64,000 nucleotides of DNA from Corallococcus macrosporus DSM 14697 (lineage in GTDB: Bacteria > Myxococcota > Myxococcia > Myxococcales > Myxococcaceae): positions 2,148,501-2,212,500 of the forward strand of contig NZ_CP022203.1 in assembly GCF_002305895.1 (NCBI RefSeq), given 5' to 3'. Below, one piece after another: positions 25,184 to 35,886 of the stretch (position 1 is its first letter; the number at the start of each line of letters is the position of its first letter). The notes under the pieces are model-generated. The model searched no databases and was not told the origin of the DNA. It saw only the letters and a program-made list of their open reading frames with translations. The position numbers and the translations under genes were made by a program.

Positions 25184-27448
<2,265 letters not shown>

Positions 27449-27961
27449 CTGCCTCCGCGATTGGGCGTCCTTGCTGTCAATACGGACAAGGTGGGGTCGT
27501 GGCGGCTGTACCCCGAGCGATGTCACGGCAGTGCCTGCCCGGCCGCAGCCAGCGCAACCCGAGCAGGCTTCAAGCACGATTTGGTGAGCATGCCTCTTCA
27601 CCTGGACATGCTCTTCGAGGTGAGCAACGGCGTCACTCAACGTCAGGGCGGACGCGAGGGAGAGGACAGCGCGCCGTGCCTCAGGGCCGAGACATCGCTG
27701 CATGAAGTGCAGTCATCCGGTCCCGAGGTGGGCGCACCGGGGCTGTGTGGCGCGATCCGCGGCCCCGGTGTGCGCATGCGCCTGGACCTCCCTTCGTCGC
27801 GGAGGCCGCGGCGGAGGGGCCGGCATCATGCTCACCGCCATGCACGCTCCACGACCCGCAAACGCTTGCCGCTACGACACGAGGACGCACCCTCGCGAAG
27901 GCGCCTCGTCATGCCTGGCCATGGTGGGTGGGCGCCCACTCGAAGTCGCGAGGGATTTCTC

Positions 27962-29606: not shown

Positions 29607-30872
29607 TCAATTCGCTGCATGGCGGCGGTTCCACCTCAGGTGCTCTTGCTCGATGAGGGCCACGGCGCGCGCGGGTCCATTTTCTGCGCGGATGCGTTCG
29701 CCCAGCGCTGTCGCATGGGCCCGCATCGTTGGGGAAAGCGCCGTGCGGATGGCGTCTGCCAGACGCTCGGCCGTGAGCGACTTCTGGGGGACCGGCTGTG
29801 GCCCTGCACCCGCGCGGAGAACCATGTGCCCCCAGAAGGGCTGGTCGCCAAGAAAGGGGCAGATGACAGTGGGTTTGCCCGCGCGCAAGCCTGCCATCGT
29901 GGAGCCGGCCCCGCCGTGATGCACCACCGCGCTCATTCGCGGGAAGAGCCAGTCATGTGGCGCGGACTCCAGCATGAAGACATGGGGCGGGAGGTCGCGC
30001 GCCTTCATGCCTCCCCAGCCCGAGGCCAGCACCGCGCGTTCGCCGGTCAACGCCACGGCCTTCAGGACGGTGGCGGCACGAGACTCAGCATGCGCCGCGC
30101 CCATGCTGCCAAAGCCCACGTAGAGAGGCGGCGGCCCCGCTTCGAGGAACGCCCGCAGCGCCGGGGGAGGAGTCCATGGGTCGCCCTCGTCGAGGAACCA
30201 GCAGCCCGTCACCTGGGCCTCGAGCGGCCAGTCGGGGGGACGTGGCAGCAGATGCTCACTGTACGCGTAGAGCGCCGGCACCGCGGAGCCCTCGACCGTC
30301 TTCATCGGGTCCGCGAAGCGTGAGCGCGGCGCGAGGCCGAGTGTCTTCACCCGGAAGTCATTGGTTGCTCCGGCCCAGACCGCGTTGGCCAGCGCCAGGA
30401 CTCGATAAGTGAGCGCGTTGAGCCAGCCGCCGAGTCGAAAACTCGGAACTATCGGCGCCGGGAACTCGCGCGTCGGAGTCAGCGGCAGCGGCATCGCTAG
30501 CAGCTCGGCGGCCCGGAGCTTCTCCGCGATGTGGTGACTGCCAAGCGCCTTGGAGTGGTACACGAGCACGTCCGGCTCCAGCTCCCGCGCCGCTCGCCAC
30601 TCGTCCTCCATGCTCGCCCGGACGATGGCGCCGAACCCCTTGAACAGTCGCCGCTGCTCGGCACGCGTAGGGGCGCGCAGAACCGCCTCCGTCAGCTCCA
30701 GCACCGCATTGTCCATGTGCGCGTATGGAATGCCGTGGCGCTCCACCATGCCTCGGAAGCCGGTAGGTGTGCAGAGCGCTACGACATGGCCACGCGCCCT
30801 CAGGGCCTTGGCGAGCGCGACGAAGGGTTGGACATCGCCTCGGGTACCGTAGGTGGAAATGAGCACGCGCAT
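29607..30872 (-). CDS. GT1 glycosyltransferase (UGT / MurG-like, macrolide or lipid glycosylation type)
   Basis: A 421-residue GT-B enzyme; the start at 30872 has GGGGAG six bases upstream. The N-terminus MRVLISTYGTRGDVQPFVAL is typical of the sterol/natural-product UGT group. The C-terminal donor site includes YVGFGSMGA, HDWLFPRMSAVVHHGGAGST and GDQPFWGHMV. Such enzymes glycosylate sterols, polyketides or other hydrophobic acceptors. It diverges from the Cys-rich peptide cluster over a 560-bp gap. A link to that cluster is not shown by the sequence. Confidence 0.88.
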   Translation of the reverse strand: MRVLISTYGTRGDVQPFVALAKALRARGHVVALCTPTGFRGMVERHGIPYAHMDNAVLELTEAVLRAPTRAEQRRLFKGFGAIVRASMEDEWRAARELEPDVLVYHSKALGSHHIAEKLRAAELLAMPLPLTPTREFPAPIVPSFRLGGWLNALTYRVLALANAVWAGATNDFRVKTLGLAPRSRFADPMKTVEGSAVPALYAYSEHLLPRPPDWPLEAQVTGCWFLDEGDPWTPPPALRAFLEAGPPPLYVGFGSMGAAHAESRAATVLKAVALTGERAVLASGWGGMKARDLPPHVFMLESAPHDWLFPRMSAVVHHGGAGSTMAGLRAGKPTVICPFLGDQPFWGHMVLRAGAGPQPVPQKSLTAERLADAIRTALSPTMRAHATALGERIRAENGPARAVALIEQEHLRWNRRHAAN

Positions 30873-31433
30873 GGAGACTCCCCACTGGAGCTTGCCTGCG
30901 GTAACAACCGCGGCAAGGTGGCGGCCCGACCACCGAGGAACCTGTGCGTGCCAGGAGCGCGACGCACACCCTTCGAGATGTGTGGTCATCGTCTCATGAC
31001 GTGATGCTTCAAGCCACGGAAACCTTGTGGGCCGGGCGCCAGTCGTTCCACGGCGACTGACGCGCGGTGGGACAACGCCTGCCTTGATGGGCTGGGGCCA
31101 AGACTGACGTTCCGCTCGCGCCGCGGCGTGCAGAGGTTCGGCGCGCTCCGATCGGCGATGGCCTGCTCCGCGCCCAGAAAAGTTGACCAGTCAAACGATG
31201 GACTCCGTGTGAATATGGTCTTCTCCCTGTGTGTGTCGCGTGATGTCAAATGCAGTCGTTTCGAAGCCATGCGTCATGCCGCGCCGCGCCGATTGGTGTG
31301 ATATGCATTGCGTCATCTCCCAGACACACAGGCTCCGCGAGGGTTTGCATTCATGATGGCTGCTGCAAGAGGTAGCCTTCGCGCCGCGTCGAAGGGGACG
31401 ACTCCTCGCGACGCAGACCGAAAGGAAAACACC
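30873..31433. other. 560-bp divergent intergenic region before the peptide gene
   Basis: It must carry promoters for the glycosyltransferase and for the Cys-rich peptide operon. Frames on both strands are short and lack start signals. It is locally more AT-rich near 31190-31320. I could not assign promoter boxes with confidence. Confidence 0.4.
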
Positions 31434-31592
31434 ATGAAGACCCTCAAGGCGCTGTCTGACCGCCTCCTGAAGCTGTTCCTGTCTGAGATTCCCGCGGGCG
31501 CCTGTGTCCCGGAGAACGGCCAGTGCTGCTCCGCGAAGCACCGTCGGTTCAACTGCTACGGCTCCTGCATCAGGACCTCCGTCTGCGGCTGA
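31434..31592 (+). CDS. Six-cysteine small peptide precursor
   Basis: A 52-residue peptide from ATG 31434 with AAAGGAAAA upstream. The first 23 residues form an amphipathic Leu/Lys leader (LKALSDRLLKLFLSEIP) ending in AGA, which meets the -3/-1 rule for a type I signal peptidase. The remaining 29 residues hold six Cys with spacing C-x6-CC-x8-C-x3-C-x5-C, which could form three disulfides. The next genes encode a MauE-like protein, a thioredoxin, an ABC exporter and an S26 signal peptidase, so it is probably their substrate. I recognise no known bacteriocin or toxin family. The coding call rests on the RBS, codon use and context. Confidence 0.72.
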   Translation: MKTLKALSDRLLKLFLSEIPAGACVPENGQCCSAKHRRFNCYGSCIRTSVCG

Positions 31593-31662
31593 TTCCAGCT
31601 TCATGACCCCGGCTGGATGTGGACCCTCCACGTCCAGTCGCGGTTTTCGCGAGGACGCTCCG

Positions 31663-32226
31663 TTGAACGCGGTCAATCTAGGCTGTCGACTGATGCTGGC
31701 CACGGTGTTCGCGCTCGCCGCGCTGGGGAAGGCGCGCGGACGCAGGCCTTTTGATGAGTTCATCCAGACGCTCGAAAACCTTGGTTTTCCGCGCGCCCTG
31801 GCCGGGGCGCCGCTGGCGGCCACGTTGGTCCTGACGGAAGCCGCCTCCGCGCTGCTGCTGGGGGTGGGCGTGGCGGCGGGGTATGCGCTGGCGCTGGCGC
31901 TCCTGGTGGGCTTCACGCTGGGGATCGCGTGGGTGATGCGCCGGGGAGAGAAGGTCGCGTGCCGGTGCTTCGGTGCGAGCAACGCCCCCGTCGGCGCGGC
32001 GCACCTGGTCCGCAATGGGCTGCTCCTGGCGGTCACGGTCGCCGGTGCGGTGAGCCACCCGTCCGCCTCCGGTGGACTGGCGATGGGCATGGGCGTCATC
32101 GCGGGGACGGTCGGCGTCCTGGCGGGGCTCTTCGTCACGCGCTGGGATGATCTGGTGTTCCTGCTTCGAGGACCGCAGCCGCTGGCCGCGTCCCCGCGAA
32201 CCCGACGAAACCGAGGCAGCCAATGA
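31663..32226 (+). CDS. MauE/DoxX-like redox-associated membrane protein
   Basis: A 187-residue protein with four hydrophobic helices (LMLATVFALAALGKA, ALLLGVGVAAGYALALALLV and others). The conserved cysteine pair is in VACRCFGAS. MauE with MauD is needed for disulfide formation in methylamine dehydrogenase small subunit; MauE-like proteins recur beside membrane thioredoxins. TTG 31663 has GAGGA seven bases upstream and places the first helix at the N-terminus; ATG 31603 is an alternative with no ribosome binding site. It overlaps the next gene by four bases. A role in oxidising the six-Cys peptide is inferred. Confidence 0.8.
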   Translation: MNAVNLGCRLMLATVFALAALGKARGRRPFDEFIQTLENLGFPRALAGAPLAATLVLTEAASALLLGVGVAAGYALALALLVGFTLGIAWVMRRGEKVACRCFGASNAPVGAAHLVRNGLLLAVTVAGAVSHPSASGGLAMGMGVIAGTVGVLAGLFVTRWDDLVFLLRGPQPLAASPRTRRNRGSQ

Positions 32227-32744
32227 TTGAAACGCTCGTCGTGGGTGGTGTCATCCTCTCCGTGCTGGTGGTGGGGAACCTCTTGCTGACCCTCGCGCTC
32301 GTCGGTCGGCTGCGCGCGCTCCAGGAGTTGATCGCCAACCAGGTCGTCCTTCGCGACCCGGCCCTGCCGCAGAAGGGAGAGCCGGTCGGCTCCTTCGAGG
32401 CCACCACCCTGGAGGGCGAAACCTTCACGGACGCCGTCCTGCGCGAGGGCAAGACGCTGGTCGGCTTCTTCACCACGGGCTGCCGGCCTTGCTCCTCGTT
32501 GCGCAAGCAACTCGTCGACTCGCCGCCCGGAGTGCCGCTGATGGCGTTCGTCGAAGGCGACCCCGACGACCCGCAGACGCTGGAGCTGGGGGCCTCGCTG
32601 AAGCAGGTGGCCCGGGTGGCGTTCCTGACCGAAGGGGACTCCGTCACGCGCGCCATCAAGCAGGCGGGCTATCCCACCCTCGTGCTCGTCGAGCGGGGCG
32701 TGGTCGCGGCCTCGGGGCACCACCTGCACGAAGTCCTGCCATGA
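32223..32744 (+). CDS. Membrane-anchored thioredoxin-fold protein (TlpA/MauD-like)
   Basis: A 173-residue protein with one N-terminal transmembrane anchor (LVVGGVILSVLVVGNLLLTL) and a periplasmic thioredoxin fold. The active site is TTGCRPCSSLR, a CRPC motif, and the cis-Pro loop is AGYPTLVLV. It overlaps both neighbours as ATGA, so it is made in step with the MauE-like protein and the exporter. MauD-type proteins reduce or isomerise disulfides. Here it probably sets the disulfide pattern of the small peptide. Confidence 0.86.
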   Translation: MIETLVVGGVILSVLVVGNLLLTLALVGRLRALQELIANQVVLRDPALPQKGEPVGSFEATTLEGETFTDAVLREGKTLVGFFTTGCRPCSSLRKQLVDSPPGVPLMAFVEGDPDDPQTLELGASLKQVARVAFLTEGDSVTRAIKQAGYPTLVLVERGVVAASGHHLHEVLP

Positions 32745-34597
32745 GCGAGGCGCGAGGGGGCCTGCGGGAGCTGACGCGCACGGTGGGGGCGGCCGTGGCG
32801 CTCCAGTGGCGCGCGGCCCCGCTGGCGTCGGTGTTCGCGCTCCTCCTCACGCTGTGCACCGGCTCCGTGGCCGCCGCGGGCGGCTGGCTCACCAAGGCGC
32901 TGCTGGATGAGCTGGGCCGAGGGGCCCTGGCGGACTCCCAGCGGGCGCTCACGCTGGCGGTGGGCGCCGCCGCGGTGGTCGGCGGCTCCATGGCCATCCT
33001 CAATGTCTCCGAGTATCTGACTGGCGTGATTCGCTGGGGCGTCACCCTGGAGGTGGAGCGCCGCCTCTTCACGAAGGTGGCGGCGCTGGAGGGCCTGCAC
33101 CACTTCGAGGACCCCGCCTTCCACGGCCGCCTGCGGCTCGCGGAGGAGGCCGCCCGGGACGCCCCCCAGCAGCTCATCGAGTTCGTGAAGGCCACCCTGC
33201 GCATGCTGGTCACGGTGGGGACGCTGAGCGCCGTGGTCCTGCTGGTGTCGCCGCCCATGGCGCTGCTGCTGCTGCTGGCGGGGGGCGTGGCCCTGCTGGC
33301 CCAGCTCGTGCGCAGCCGGTGGCTGGTGGAGCTGGCCGTGGCGCTGGTGCCGACCTATCGCTGGCGCGACTTCTACCACGCGCTGCTGGTGGACGTGCGG
33401 GCGGCCAAGGAGAGCCGGCTGTTCGGGCTGGGGGACCTGTTGCTGGAGCGGATGGTGGCCTCGCTGCGCAAGGCGGCGGACCGCGAGCTGGCCGTGACGC
33501 GCAAGGGGTTGGCCGTGCAGGCGGCGCTGTCGCTGCTCACGGCCGCGGTGGCGGCGGTCGGGTCCTTCATCGTCGCCCGAGGCGCGCTCCAGGGGCGGCT
33601 CCAGCTCGGAGACGTCTCCCTCTTCCTCGCGGCCGTGGCGGGCATCCAGGGGGCCTTCAACGGGCTCCTCGCGCAGGTCGAGTTCGCGGGCCGCAGTGTC
33701 CAGACCTTCAAGCACTACCTCGACATCATCGCCCTGCCAGTCCACGCGCCGGAGGCGTCACGGCCGGTGGCGCCGCTGAGGCACGGCGTGGAGCTGCGCG
33801 ACGTCTGGTTCCGCTATGACGCCCAGGGACCGTGGGTGCTGCGCGGGGTGAGCCTCTTCATCCCGGCGGCTGGCTCGGTGGGGCTCGTCGGCGTCAACGG
33901 CGCTGGAAAGAGCACGCTGGTGAAGCTGCTGTGCCGCCTCTATGACGCGGAGCGAGGCCAGATTCTCTGGGACGGCGTGGACGTCCGCGAGCTGGATGCG
34001 CGCGCGCTGCGGCGGCGGATGACGGCGACCTTCCAGGACTTCATGACGTATGACTTCACCGCCGCGGAGAACATCGGGCTGGGGGACCTGGACCGGCTGA
34101 AGGACGAGGCGCGAATCCGCGACGTGGCACGGCTGGCGGAGATTGACGAGAAGCTCGCCTCACTCCCCGCCGGCTACCACACGCTGCTCAGCCGCGTGCT
34201 CGAAGGGGAGGACGAGGACATGCCCGCGGGCGTCTCGCTCTCCGGAGGGCAGTGGCAGCGATTGGCGCTGGCGCGGGCCCTGATGCGCCAGGACGTCGAC
34301 CTGCTGGTGCTGGACGAACCGAGCTCCGGCCTGGACGCCGCCGCCGAGTTCCACATCCACCGGACGCTGGCGCGCCACGGCGAGGGAAGGGCGCGGCTGC
34401 TCATCTCCCACCGGATGAGCGCGCTGCGGAGCGCGGACACCCTCTTCGTCCTCTCCGAGGGGCGCATCATCGAGCAGGGCTCGCATGACGCGTTGATGAC
34501 GGCGGGCGGTGAATACGCGCGCTTGTTCACGCTCCAGGCGAGCGGCTATCAGGACGAGCGCGTCGCATCACGGGCGGGCCAGAAGGAGGTCGCATGA
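32741..34597 (+). CDS. ABC exporter (fused membrane and ATPase domains), peptide-export type
   Basis: A 618-residue type I exporter half. Six helices occupy residues about 25-320. The ATPase domain shows Walker A GVNGAGKST, Q-loop TFQDF, signature LSGGQWQRLALARAL, Walker B DLLVLDEPSSGLD and H-loop ISHRMS. There is no N-terminal C39 peptidase, so leader removal must be by another protein; an S26 peptidase gene overlaps its 3' end by ATGA. It would act as a homodimer in the inner membrane. The substrate is inferred to be the six-Cys peptide. Confidence 0.93.
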   Translation: MSEARGGLRELTRTVGAAVALQWRAAPLASVFALLLTLCTGSVAAAGGWLTKALLDELGRGALADSQRALTLAVGAAAVVGGSMAILNVSEYLTGVIRWGVTLEVERRLFTKVAALEGLHHFEDPAFHGRLRLAEEAARDAPQQLIEFVKATLRMLVTVGTLSAVVLLVSPPMALLLLLAGGVALLAQLVRSRWLVELAVALVPTYRWRDFYHALLVDVRAAKESRLFGLGDLLLERMVASLRKAADRELAVTRKGLAVQAALSLLTAAVAAVGSFIVARGALQGRLQLGDVSLFLAAVAGIQGAFNGLLAQVEFAGRSVQTFKHYLDIIALPVHAPEASRPVAPLRHGVELRDVWFRYDAQGPWVLRGVSLFIPAAGSVGLVGVNGAGKSTLVKLLCRLYDAERGQILWDGVDVRELDARALRRRMTATFQDFMTYDFTAAENIGLGDLDRLKDEARIRDVARLAEIDEKLASLPAGYHTLLSRVLEGEDEDMPAGVSLSGGQWQRLALARALMRQDVDLLVLDEPSSGLDAAAEFHIHRTLARHGEGRARLLISHRMSALRSADTLFVLSEGRIIEQGSHDALMTAGGEYARLFTLQASGYQDERVASRAGQKEVA

Positions 34598-35073
34598 TGC
34601 TCACGGCGATGGGCGCGGGGGCCGCGCTCCTCGTGGCGGGAGTCGCGGCGGCGGCCTGGGGGCGCCGCCGCTGGGTGGTCGTCGCGGTGCGGGGCAACAG
34701 CATGTCGCCCACGCTGCACGACGGACAACGGCTCGTCGCGAGGCGGTTGGGCCGCGCTCCCGCGCCGGGGAACGGGTATTCGCGCTCCGACGTCGTCGTC
34801 TTCGTGCTTTCCGCGAAGCAGCGCGAGACGCTGGAGGCCGAAGCGCTGCCCTATCTCGTCAAGCGGGTGGCCGCCGTGGCGGGAGACCCGGTGCCGGACT
34901 GGGCCCGGGCGGCGCTCGGTGCCGACGATGATTCGCGCGTCCCACCCGGGAAGGTCGTGGTGTCGGGAGACAACGCTCGGAGCCAGGACTCGCGGCAATT
35001 GGGCTACATCGACGCGGAGGCCATCATCGCCGTCGTGCGGCTCCGGGGGCCGGAGCCTTCGCGAACAGGGTAG
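34594..35073 (+). CDS. S26-family signal peptidase
   Basis: A 159-residue protein with an N-terminal hydrophobic segment (MGAGAALLVAGVAAAAW) and signal peptidase I boxes: GNSMSPTLHDGQ with the catalytic Ser, YLVKRVAAVAGD with the catalytic Lys, and VVVSGDNARSQDSRQLGYI. It is shorter than housekeeping LepB and lacks the second transmembrane helix. As the last gene of the ATGA-overlapped operon it is likely dedicated to one substrate, presumably cutting the peptide precursor after Ala23. That cut site is inferred. Confidence 0.88.
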   Translation: MMLTAMGAGAALLVAGVAAAAWGRRRWVVVAVRGNSMSPTLHDGQRLVARRLGRAPAPGNGYSRSDVVVFVLSAKQRETLEAEALPYLVKRVAAVAGDPVPDWARAALGADDDSRVPPGKVVVSGDNARSQDSRQLGYIDAEAIIAVVRLRGPEPSRTG

Positions 35074-35384
35074 GCGTTGGGCCGACGCGCCAGGGGCTCT
35101 GGAGAGGACACGGCGTGGTCCACGGACGACGCGCCAGTGCAGGGGCCGGAGCTGAGTGGATTCTCCGACGCCCAGCGCACCAACCGTGAACTCGCGGAGT
35201 TCGCGGCCAGGCGGGCCGCATGGCCTGAGCCGCCACGCGCCTCCGCCATGGCCCTTCGCGGAGGGAGCGGGCAACCGCTCCGCTCACCCCCGCCCCATTT
35301 CAGCGACCGCCTGCCGTTGCCCTGCGGCAGGGCCCTTTCGCGCTCGCCTGCTCCTCGGCCTGTTCGAGCGTCACGAGTGGCGGT
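35074..35384. other. Intergenic region after the peptide operon
   Basis: About 310 bp with no supported gene. Frames on both strands are GC-rich shadows. I see no second Cys-rich precursor in it. It separates the peptide operon from IS debris. Confidence 0.45.
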
Positions 35385-35700: not shown

Positions 35701-35704
35701 TCAG

Positions 35705-35886
35705 GCCACCGTCTTCATCGCCATCGACCACGGCACCGCCGAGTGCGTCGGCATCCACGCGGCCAAGGTCGGTACCCGCGTCGAAGCCCTTGAGCCCATC
35801 CGCCAAAGGAGCAACCGCGCTGGGTGCGCACCTTCTCCACCGTGGAGGAGCTGCGGCGGGCCCTGCTGGAGTGGGTCCGAGAATTG
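35705..35886 (+). mobile_element. Remnant of an integrase-core (IS3/IS481-like) transposase
   Basis: Two short transposase pieces lie in different frames: IAIDHGTAECVGIHAAKVGT with VEALEPIRQ (35705-35806), and WVRTFSTVEELRRALLEW (35821-35886). In intact transposases about 60-80 residues, including the second Asp and the Glu of the DDE triad, separate them. The element is thus internally deleted and dead. No terminal repeats could be placed. Confidence 0.6.

Follow-up and report, generated by a model that had tools for sequence, protein, structure and literature searches.

Maturation of methylamine dehydrogenase requires both MauE and MauD, without which its subunit with many disulfides is not matured. 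A similar pair of genes was found in the analyzed stretch of 64,000 nucleotides (hereinafter, the window), where a MauE homologue (PF07291, above the cut-off) adjoins a thioredoxin-like protein that bears CxxC; unlike the methylamine dehydrogenase system, this cassette contains no other mau genes, and its substrate would be a small peptide. Sublancin is processed in a related way, with a C39 exporter, a double-glycine leader, S-glycosylation, and dedicated thiol-disulfide oxidoreductases. The cassette shares with sublancin-type bacteriocins a cysteine-rich precursor, an exporter, and private oxidoreductases, but it includes an S26 peptidase and an AxA leader, and its conserved block contains no glycosyltransferase. 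Cinnamycin-type lanthipeptides also have AxA at the leader/core border, for which cleavage by a type I signal peptidase is presumed, whereas their LanM-made lanthionine cross-links have no counterpart in the cassette.

The closest precedent is provided by three candidate RiPP families of Streptomyces that contain mauE, in one case together with mauD, and were proposed by decRiPPter; their precursors have at least eight cysteines, for which disulfide formation was suggested, and the families are unvalidated computational candidates (PMC7794033). The common feature is mauE beside a predicted cysteine-rich precursor (PMC7794033), and in the window a six-cysteine precursor is located immediately upstream of the mauE homologue. 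The minimum of eight cysteines is not reached by this precursor, and in other cassettes the number ranges from four to eight. As far as the description of the decRiPPter families extends, it names neither an S26 peptidase, an AxA leader rule, or exporter pairing, nor a myxobacterial or six-cysteine member (PMC7794033); one or another of these families may coincide with the Streptomyces cassettes described below. Consequently, cysteine-rich peptides linked to mauE are already published as a computational candidate (PMC7794033), and, relative to the literature found, the elements that are new as far as could be seen are the six-cysteine family of myxobacteria, the occurrence of the full set of five genes in two phyla, the rule of leader plus [AV]xA combined with an S26 peptidase of its own, and a deletion relic. 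The literature on fulvocin, or on MauE together with bacteriocins, yielded nothing useful. Small secreted cysteine-rich peptides of Myxococcaceae are also represented by the cis-defensins, characterized by a Sec signal and by the pattern CX(2,18)CX(3)CX(2,12)CX(4,17)CXC (PMC11561630). The window peptide does not conform to this group, as it has no C-x-C end and no h-region.

The cassette and its precursor gene

Positions 31434-35073 of the window are best explained, judging from comparison of the sequences, as a self-contained five-gene cassette that would make and secrete a small three-disulfide peptide (probability of this explanation as a whole, about 0.74; Table 1). All five genes are located on the same strand of the single 8.97-Mb contig of the host genome, which belongs to Myxococcaceae judging by its named relatives, with ends overlapping or close to each other.

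Table 1. Genes of the putative cassette and parts of the predicted precursor (positions in the window).
Feature	Position	Strand	Description
Precursor gene, 52 codons	31434-31592	+	Translation MKTLKALSDRLLKLFLSEIPAGACVPENGQCCSAKHRRFNCYGSCIRTSVCG, then stop
Leader, residues 1-23	31434-31502	+	MKTLKALSDRLLKLFLSEIPAGA; amphipathic, AGA at its end
Core, 29 residues, plus stop codon	31503-31592	+	CVPENGQCCSAKHRRFNCYGSCIRTSVCG; six Cys
MauE-family membrane protein (PF07291)	31693-32226	+	TTG at 31663 is an alternative start; C-x-C-F-G conserved at 31960-31968
Thioredoxin-like (TlpA/MauD-like) protein	32223-32744	+	CxxC (Cys87, Cys90) without exception in 23 homologues from cassettes
ABC exporter, permease and ATPase fused, 618 aa	32741-34597	+	N-terminal C39 peptidase domain absent
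Compact S26 signal peptidase, 159 aa	34594-35073	+	Single N-terminal hydrophobic segment; Ser36 and Lys90 conserved

The precursor ATG is located eleven bases downstream of the purine-rich sequence GAAAGGA, and in the upstream alignment conservation in all loci was limited to the last ~30 bases before the precursor; a scan for sigma-70 promoters and terminators found none. Homologues in Myxococcaceae were 60-75% identical and had the start codon and ribosome-binding region in common. The pN/pS ratio was 0.51 for the whole precursor and 0.25 for the leader (nine aligned copies), while the median dN/dS among the Myxococcaceae copies was 0.22 in the leader versus 0.56 in the core, in which all cysteines and two glycines were unchanged among the aligned copies. 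By these ratios, purifying selection is acting on the precursor ORF, and, given also the homologues with the same start and ribosome-binding region, the ORF is not a chance one. Comparison of the precursor with NCBIfam and Pfam assigned it to no family, and a PDB sequence search with its profile returned chance matches only (best E-value = 0.18, a p53 zinc site).

The MauE protein matched PF07291 with E-value = 6.8 × 10−21 (75 bits, cut-off 27), and its Cys108 and Cys110 (CxC) were retained by every, or almost every, copy. The Walker motifs of the ABC exporter were conserved among the cassette homologues, and Ser36 and Lys90 of the S26 peptidase were conserved in at least 90% of 24 homologues.

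Distribution, decay, and putative role

The precursor profile matched 11 of the 96 Myxococcaceae genomes, one of which (G018) carries a decayed copy. None of the ten intact Myxococcaceae loci departed from the order precursor, MauE, thioredoxin-like protein, ABC exporter, and S26 peptidase, or from the common strand; among the loci compared, L034 is the same contig as L053, and L035 the same as L058. Comparison of the flanks revealed neither a sixth gene nor an immunity gene common to these loci. The DNA matches in two sister genomes extended from ~200 bases upstream of the precursor to the end of the S26 gene (31229 or 31257 to 35066), and the neighbours of the cassette in the window (a glycosyltransferase on the left and a WYL regulator on the right) matched unlinked sites in other congeneric genomes. 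Thus, the cassette is portable, since its flanks are not shared and the matches in sister genomes end at its edges.

A contiguous deletion scar was found in G018, a genome of the same genus (locus L061, G018:C1:179573-179916), where a match to positions 31374-31628 of the window is directly joined to a match to 35007-35095. A single deletion removed three genes entirely (MauE, thioredoxin-like, and exporter) and the S26 gene for the most part, and the remaining precursor lacks the ATG and two of the six cysteines, as expected if the precursor is useless without the machinery. In G016, most of the cassette is present, but the contig has lost the precursor together with the beginning of MauE.

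Other features were observed around the cassette in the window. Just downstream of it, positions 35702-35878 comprise two adjoining pieces of 104 and 73 bases with many copies across the genus (80-94% identity, usually paired), representing a dispersed repeat or the remnant of a mobile element. On the minus strand, positions 25184-27703 encode an unusual fusion, in which a P-type ATPase (HAD and E1-E2 ATPase domains) carries a hemerythrin domain (PF01814) at its C-terminus, and positions 29607-30989 encode a GT1-family glycosyltransferase, for which the best model was the rifamycin-inactivating Rgt (E-value = 5 × 10−44, far below the cut-off).

Beyond Myxococcota, tblastn detected five unannotated precursor homologues on two megaplasmids of Embleya (Actinomycetota). 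They were 43-49% identical in the best places, had the core start ACVPE-x-G in common with the window peptide, and contained six cysteines. Four of the five formed pairs preceding an ABC exporter that shares 52-53% identity with that of the window, with an S26 gene downstream; in these paired-precursor loci (group 1), the thioredoxin-like gene is divergent upstream, and no MauE gene is located nearby. The fifth, at positions 9001-9165 of L044 (NZ_CP108777.1), is an orphan with no cassette within 9 kb; the same plasmid bears a complete cassette with two precursors, and the orphan may use its machinery in trans. MauE is therefore not universal, given the group-1 loci and L044.

A search based on the exporter revealed the same machinery on plasmids of Streptomyces and Nonomuraea, which, like Embleya, are soil actinobacteria (exporters of the three genera 43-53% identical to that of the window), and the cysteine-rich peptides beside the Streptomyces and Nonomuraea machinery had no similarity to the window peptide in the core. 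The gene order was the same on the Streptomyces plasmids: three loci were annotated as MauE, TlpA or hypothetical protein, ABC, and S26, and in L076 MauE was recognized by sequence. In a tree of the exporters, those Embleya cassettes that have the core type of the window joined the cassettes of Myxococcaceae (support 100/99), while the Embleya cassettes with another core were placed elsewhere, which indicates that the exporter and the core type travel together. An ABC match from Chelatococcus is only an outgroup and has no cassette. Transfer of the cassette between phyla, in one direction or the other, is the likely history. Tandem precursor pairs were frequent (L057, L056, L052, L045, L074, and L082), as in two-peptide bacteriocins or after recent duplication.

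With regard to the role of the product, we consider the chances about even that it acts on other bacteria or is directed in some other way against competitors or prey, a guess that follows from the rapid change of the core, the scattered distribution, and the loss of the cassette. The product might instead be a signal or a developmental factor, in agreement with which no conserved immunity gene was found and the cassette, although sporadic, drifts vertically. This alternative is possible but rather doubtful, because fast divergence of the cores with retention of the leader and machinery, together with scatter and loss across the family, is the pattern of a weapon more than of development.

The cassette has the appearance of a general-purpose line on which disulfide peptides are made for secretion. 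The broader proposal, for and against which we would bet equally, is that of a RiPP-like class in Myxococcota and Actinomycetota, in which one exchangeable leader code (a short amphipathic helix with [AV]xA) is combined with one portable MauE/thioredoxin/ABC/S26 machine that would fold, export, and trim unrelated disulfide cores independently of Sec. If true, it would define a dedicated Sec-independent route for disulfide mini-proteins, in which a single leader type is handled by an ABC exporter, an oxidase system of the MauE type, and a signal peptidase of its own, and, since one core can be fully exchanged for another between cassettes, the leader with its machinery would be usable for designed disulfide peptides.

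Leader, export, and cysteines

The original prediction, made from the window sequence alone, described the leader as amphipathic rather than a normal Sec signal, which agrees with its helical moment of 0.53 (a value reached by 2.5% of shuffles) and with its longest uncharged run of 5 residues, versus 17-18 residues in the four Sec signals of E. coli taken for comparison. No h-region of the Sec type was recognized in it. The other cassettes also had short leaders, amphipathic for the most part (moment 0.37-0.56), and a Sec-type hydrophobic core was found in none of them. Recognition by the ABC exporter, also suggested in the original prediction, is probable. The amphipathic leader would keep the precursor off Sec and dock it on the dedicated exporter, which, judging by its family, would carry the reduced peptide across the inner membrane.

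Alternatively, the precursor could be exported by Sec and cut by the housekeeping LepB, the S26 peptidase of the cassette being incidental. A housekeeping-type S26 gene is indeed present in the genome (C1:4127607-4128221), AxA is the normal motif of this enzyme, and the AxA of cinnamycin-type lanthipeptides is thought to be cut by the general Sec-type signal peptidase (PMC6165096). Nevertheless, this route is improbable in view of the short uncharged run of the leader, which provides no hydrophobic core, and of the private S26 peptidase with conserved Ser and Lys in all intact cassettes of two phyla.

The cysteine pattern C-x6-CC-x8-C-x3-C-x5-C was exact in the translation, with cysteines at positions 24, 31, 32, 41, 45, and 51 (spacing 6-0-8-3-5) and 29 residues after Ala23, but the proposed compatibility with a knotted mini-protein was not supported. 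In a canonical knottin, C1, C2, and C3 are separated, and CC, if present, is located at C3-C4, whereas the adjacent pair of the window peptide falls at C2-C3. In the Embleya homologues, the third cysteine is displaced by one or two positions (C-x7-C-x1/2-C; full spacing 7-1/2-9/11-3-5/6). Knottin disulfides connect C1-C4, C2-C5, and C3-C6, the third being threaded through (PMC6024828). Structure prediction, proposed earlier as a check, was of low confidence (AlphaFold pLDDT 68 with a single sequence and 52 with three sequences, too low for pairing the cysteines), and what the two models had in common was limited to a helical leader and short strands at residues 23-25 and 30-32.

Variation in cysteine number, which the original prediction had counted against itself, was found in part: the number was fixed at six in close homologues, while one divergent Myxococcaceae homologue (G149) had eight, and the wider cassettes had four, six, or eight. 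The number varies yet is always even, which argues against one fixed fold and not against disulfides. The probability that ten independent families are all even by chance is ~0.01; since even counts also occur in 65% of random small cysteine-rich ORFs, the support from parity is moderate. The source of the disulfides is likely the MauE and thioredoxin-like proteins, omitted from the original prediction, which, by their CxC and CxxC motifs and by analogy with the known MauE/MauD, would form or shuffle the three disulfides on the far side of the membrane. Instead of forming three disulfides, the cysteines might serve another modification or metal binding or be joined by thioethers, as metal-binding and thioether peptides are cysteine-rich too and the MauE protein had a weak match, far below the cut-off, to HvfX, a protein of copper-binding RiPPs (E-value = 0.001). 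Such use is quite improbable for a cassette with MauE and a CxxC protein in which no lanthionine synthetase, radical SAM, or MNIO gene was found.

Predicted cleavage site

Residues 21-23 of the precursor are Ala-Gly-Ala, directly followed by Cys24, and the S26 gene is the fourth gene downstream, both as originally described. The proposed cut according to the -3/-1 rule, between 31502 and 31503 (after Ala23), was supported by the other cassettes: [AV]-x-A was located at the leader/core border in every cassette examined, even though the cores diverged completely. Within ten residues before the first cysteine, [AV]xA was found in 24 of the 24 precursors scored versus 12% of 60 small cysteine-containing ORFs of the same loci. 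The leaders ended, with the cysteine number in parentheses, in TAHA/VNC (6), TADA/AAAPG (4), SASA/QVGPQGC (8), EAEA/GC (8), EASA/AGC (6), TAEA/EPC (4), DASA/AAQDC (6), EAAA/ATEC (6), and TVDA/GC (6). Thus, position -1 was always Ala and -3 was Ala or Val, while -2 and everything downstream of the cut were free.

C39 peptidases require Gly at -2, and signal peptidase II requires Cys at +1. An [AV]xA motif with free -2 and +1 is therefore the rule of a type I signal peptidase and of neither of these enzymes. In the window, small residues at -3 and -1 (AGA) are combined with an enzyme bearing the Ser36/Lys90 dyad, and the assignment of the cut site to this S26 peptidase is supported by the retention of the rule across cassettes. 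Cleavage by S26 after Ala23 is strongly supported by this comparison; the membrane-bound enzyme would cut last, the sequence of export, oxidation, and cleavage being assumed.

A lipoprotein reading, in which AGAC is a lipobox, Cys24 is lipidated, and signal peptidase II makes the cut, draws on the cysteine directly after a small-residue triplet in the precursor family of the window, but it is very improbable given the leader without a hydrophobic segment, the V, Q, A, or E that follows [AV]xA in sister cassettes with the first cysteine later, and the linked peptidase of family S26. Equally remote is a Gly-Ala variant of the double-glycine leader cut by a C39 peptidase of the exporter, which Gly22-Ala23 and the linked ABC exporter would fit, as no C39 domain was found in the 618-aa exporter with Pfam and NCBIfam (its sequence starts at the transmembrane domain) and -2 is not restricted to Gly in sister cassettes (AHA, ADA, ASA, AEA, VDA).

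The leader together with the [AV]xA rule lets genome mining catch precursors missed by annotation, as in Embleya, where the listed annotation of both records contains none. For cleavage by the S26 peptidase of the cassette, the predicted product of the window is a 29-mer, C24-G52, with a net charge of +3 and a computed monoisotopic mass of 3171.31 Da with three disulfides.
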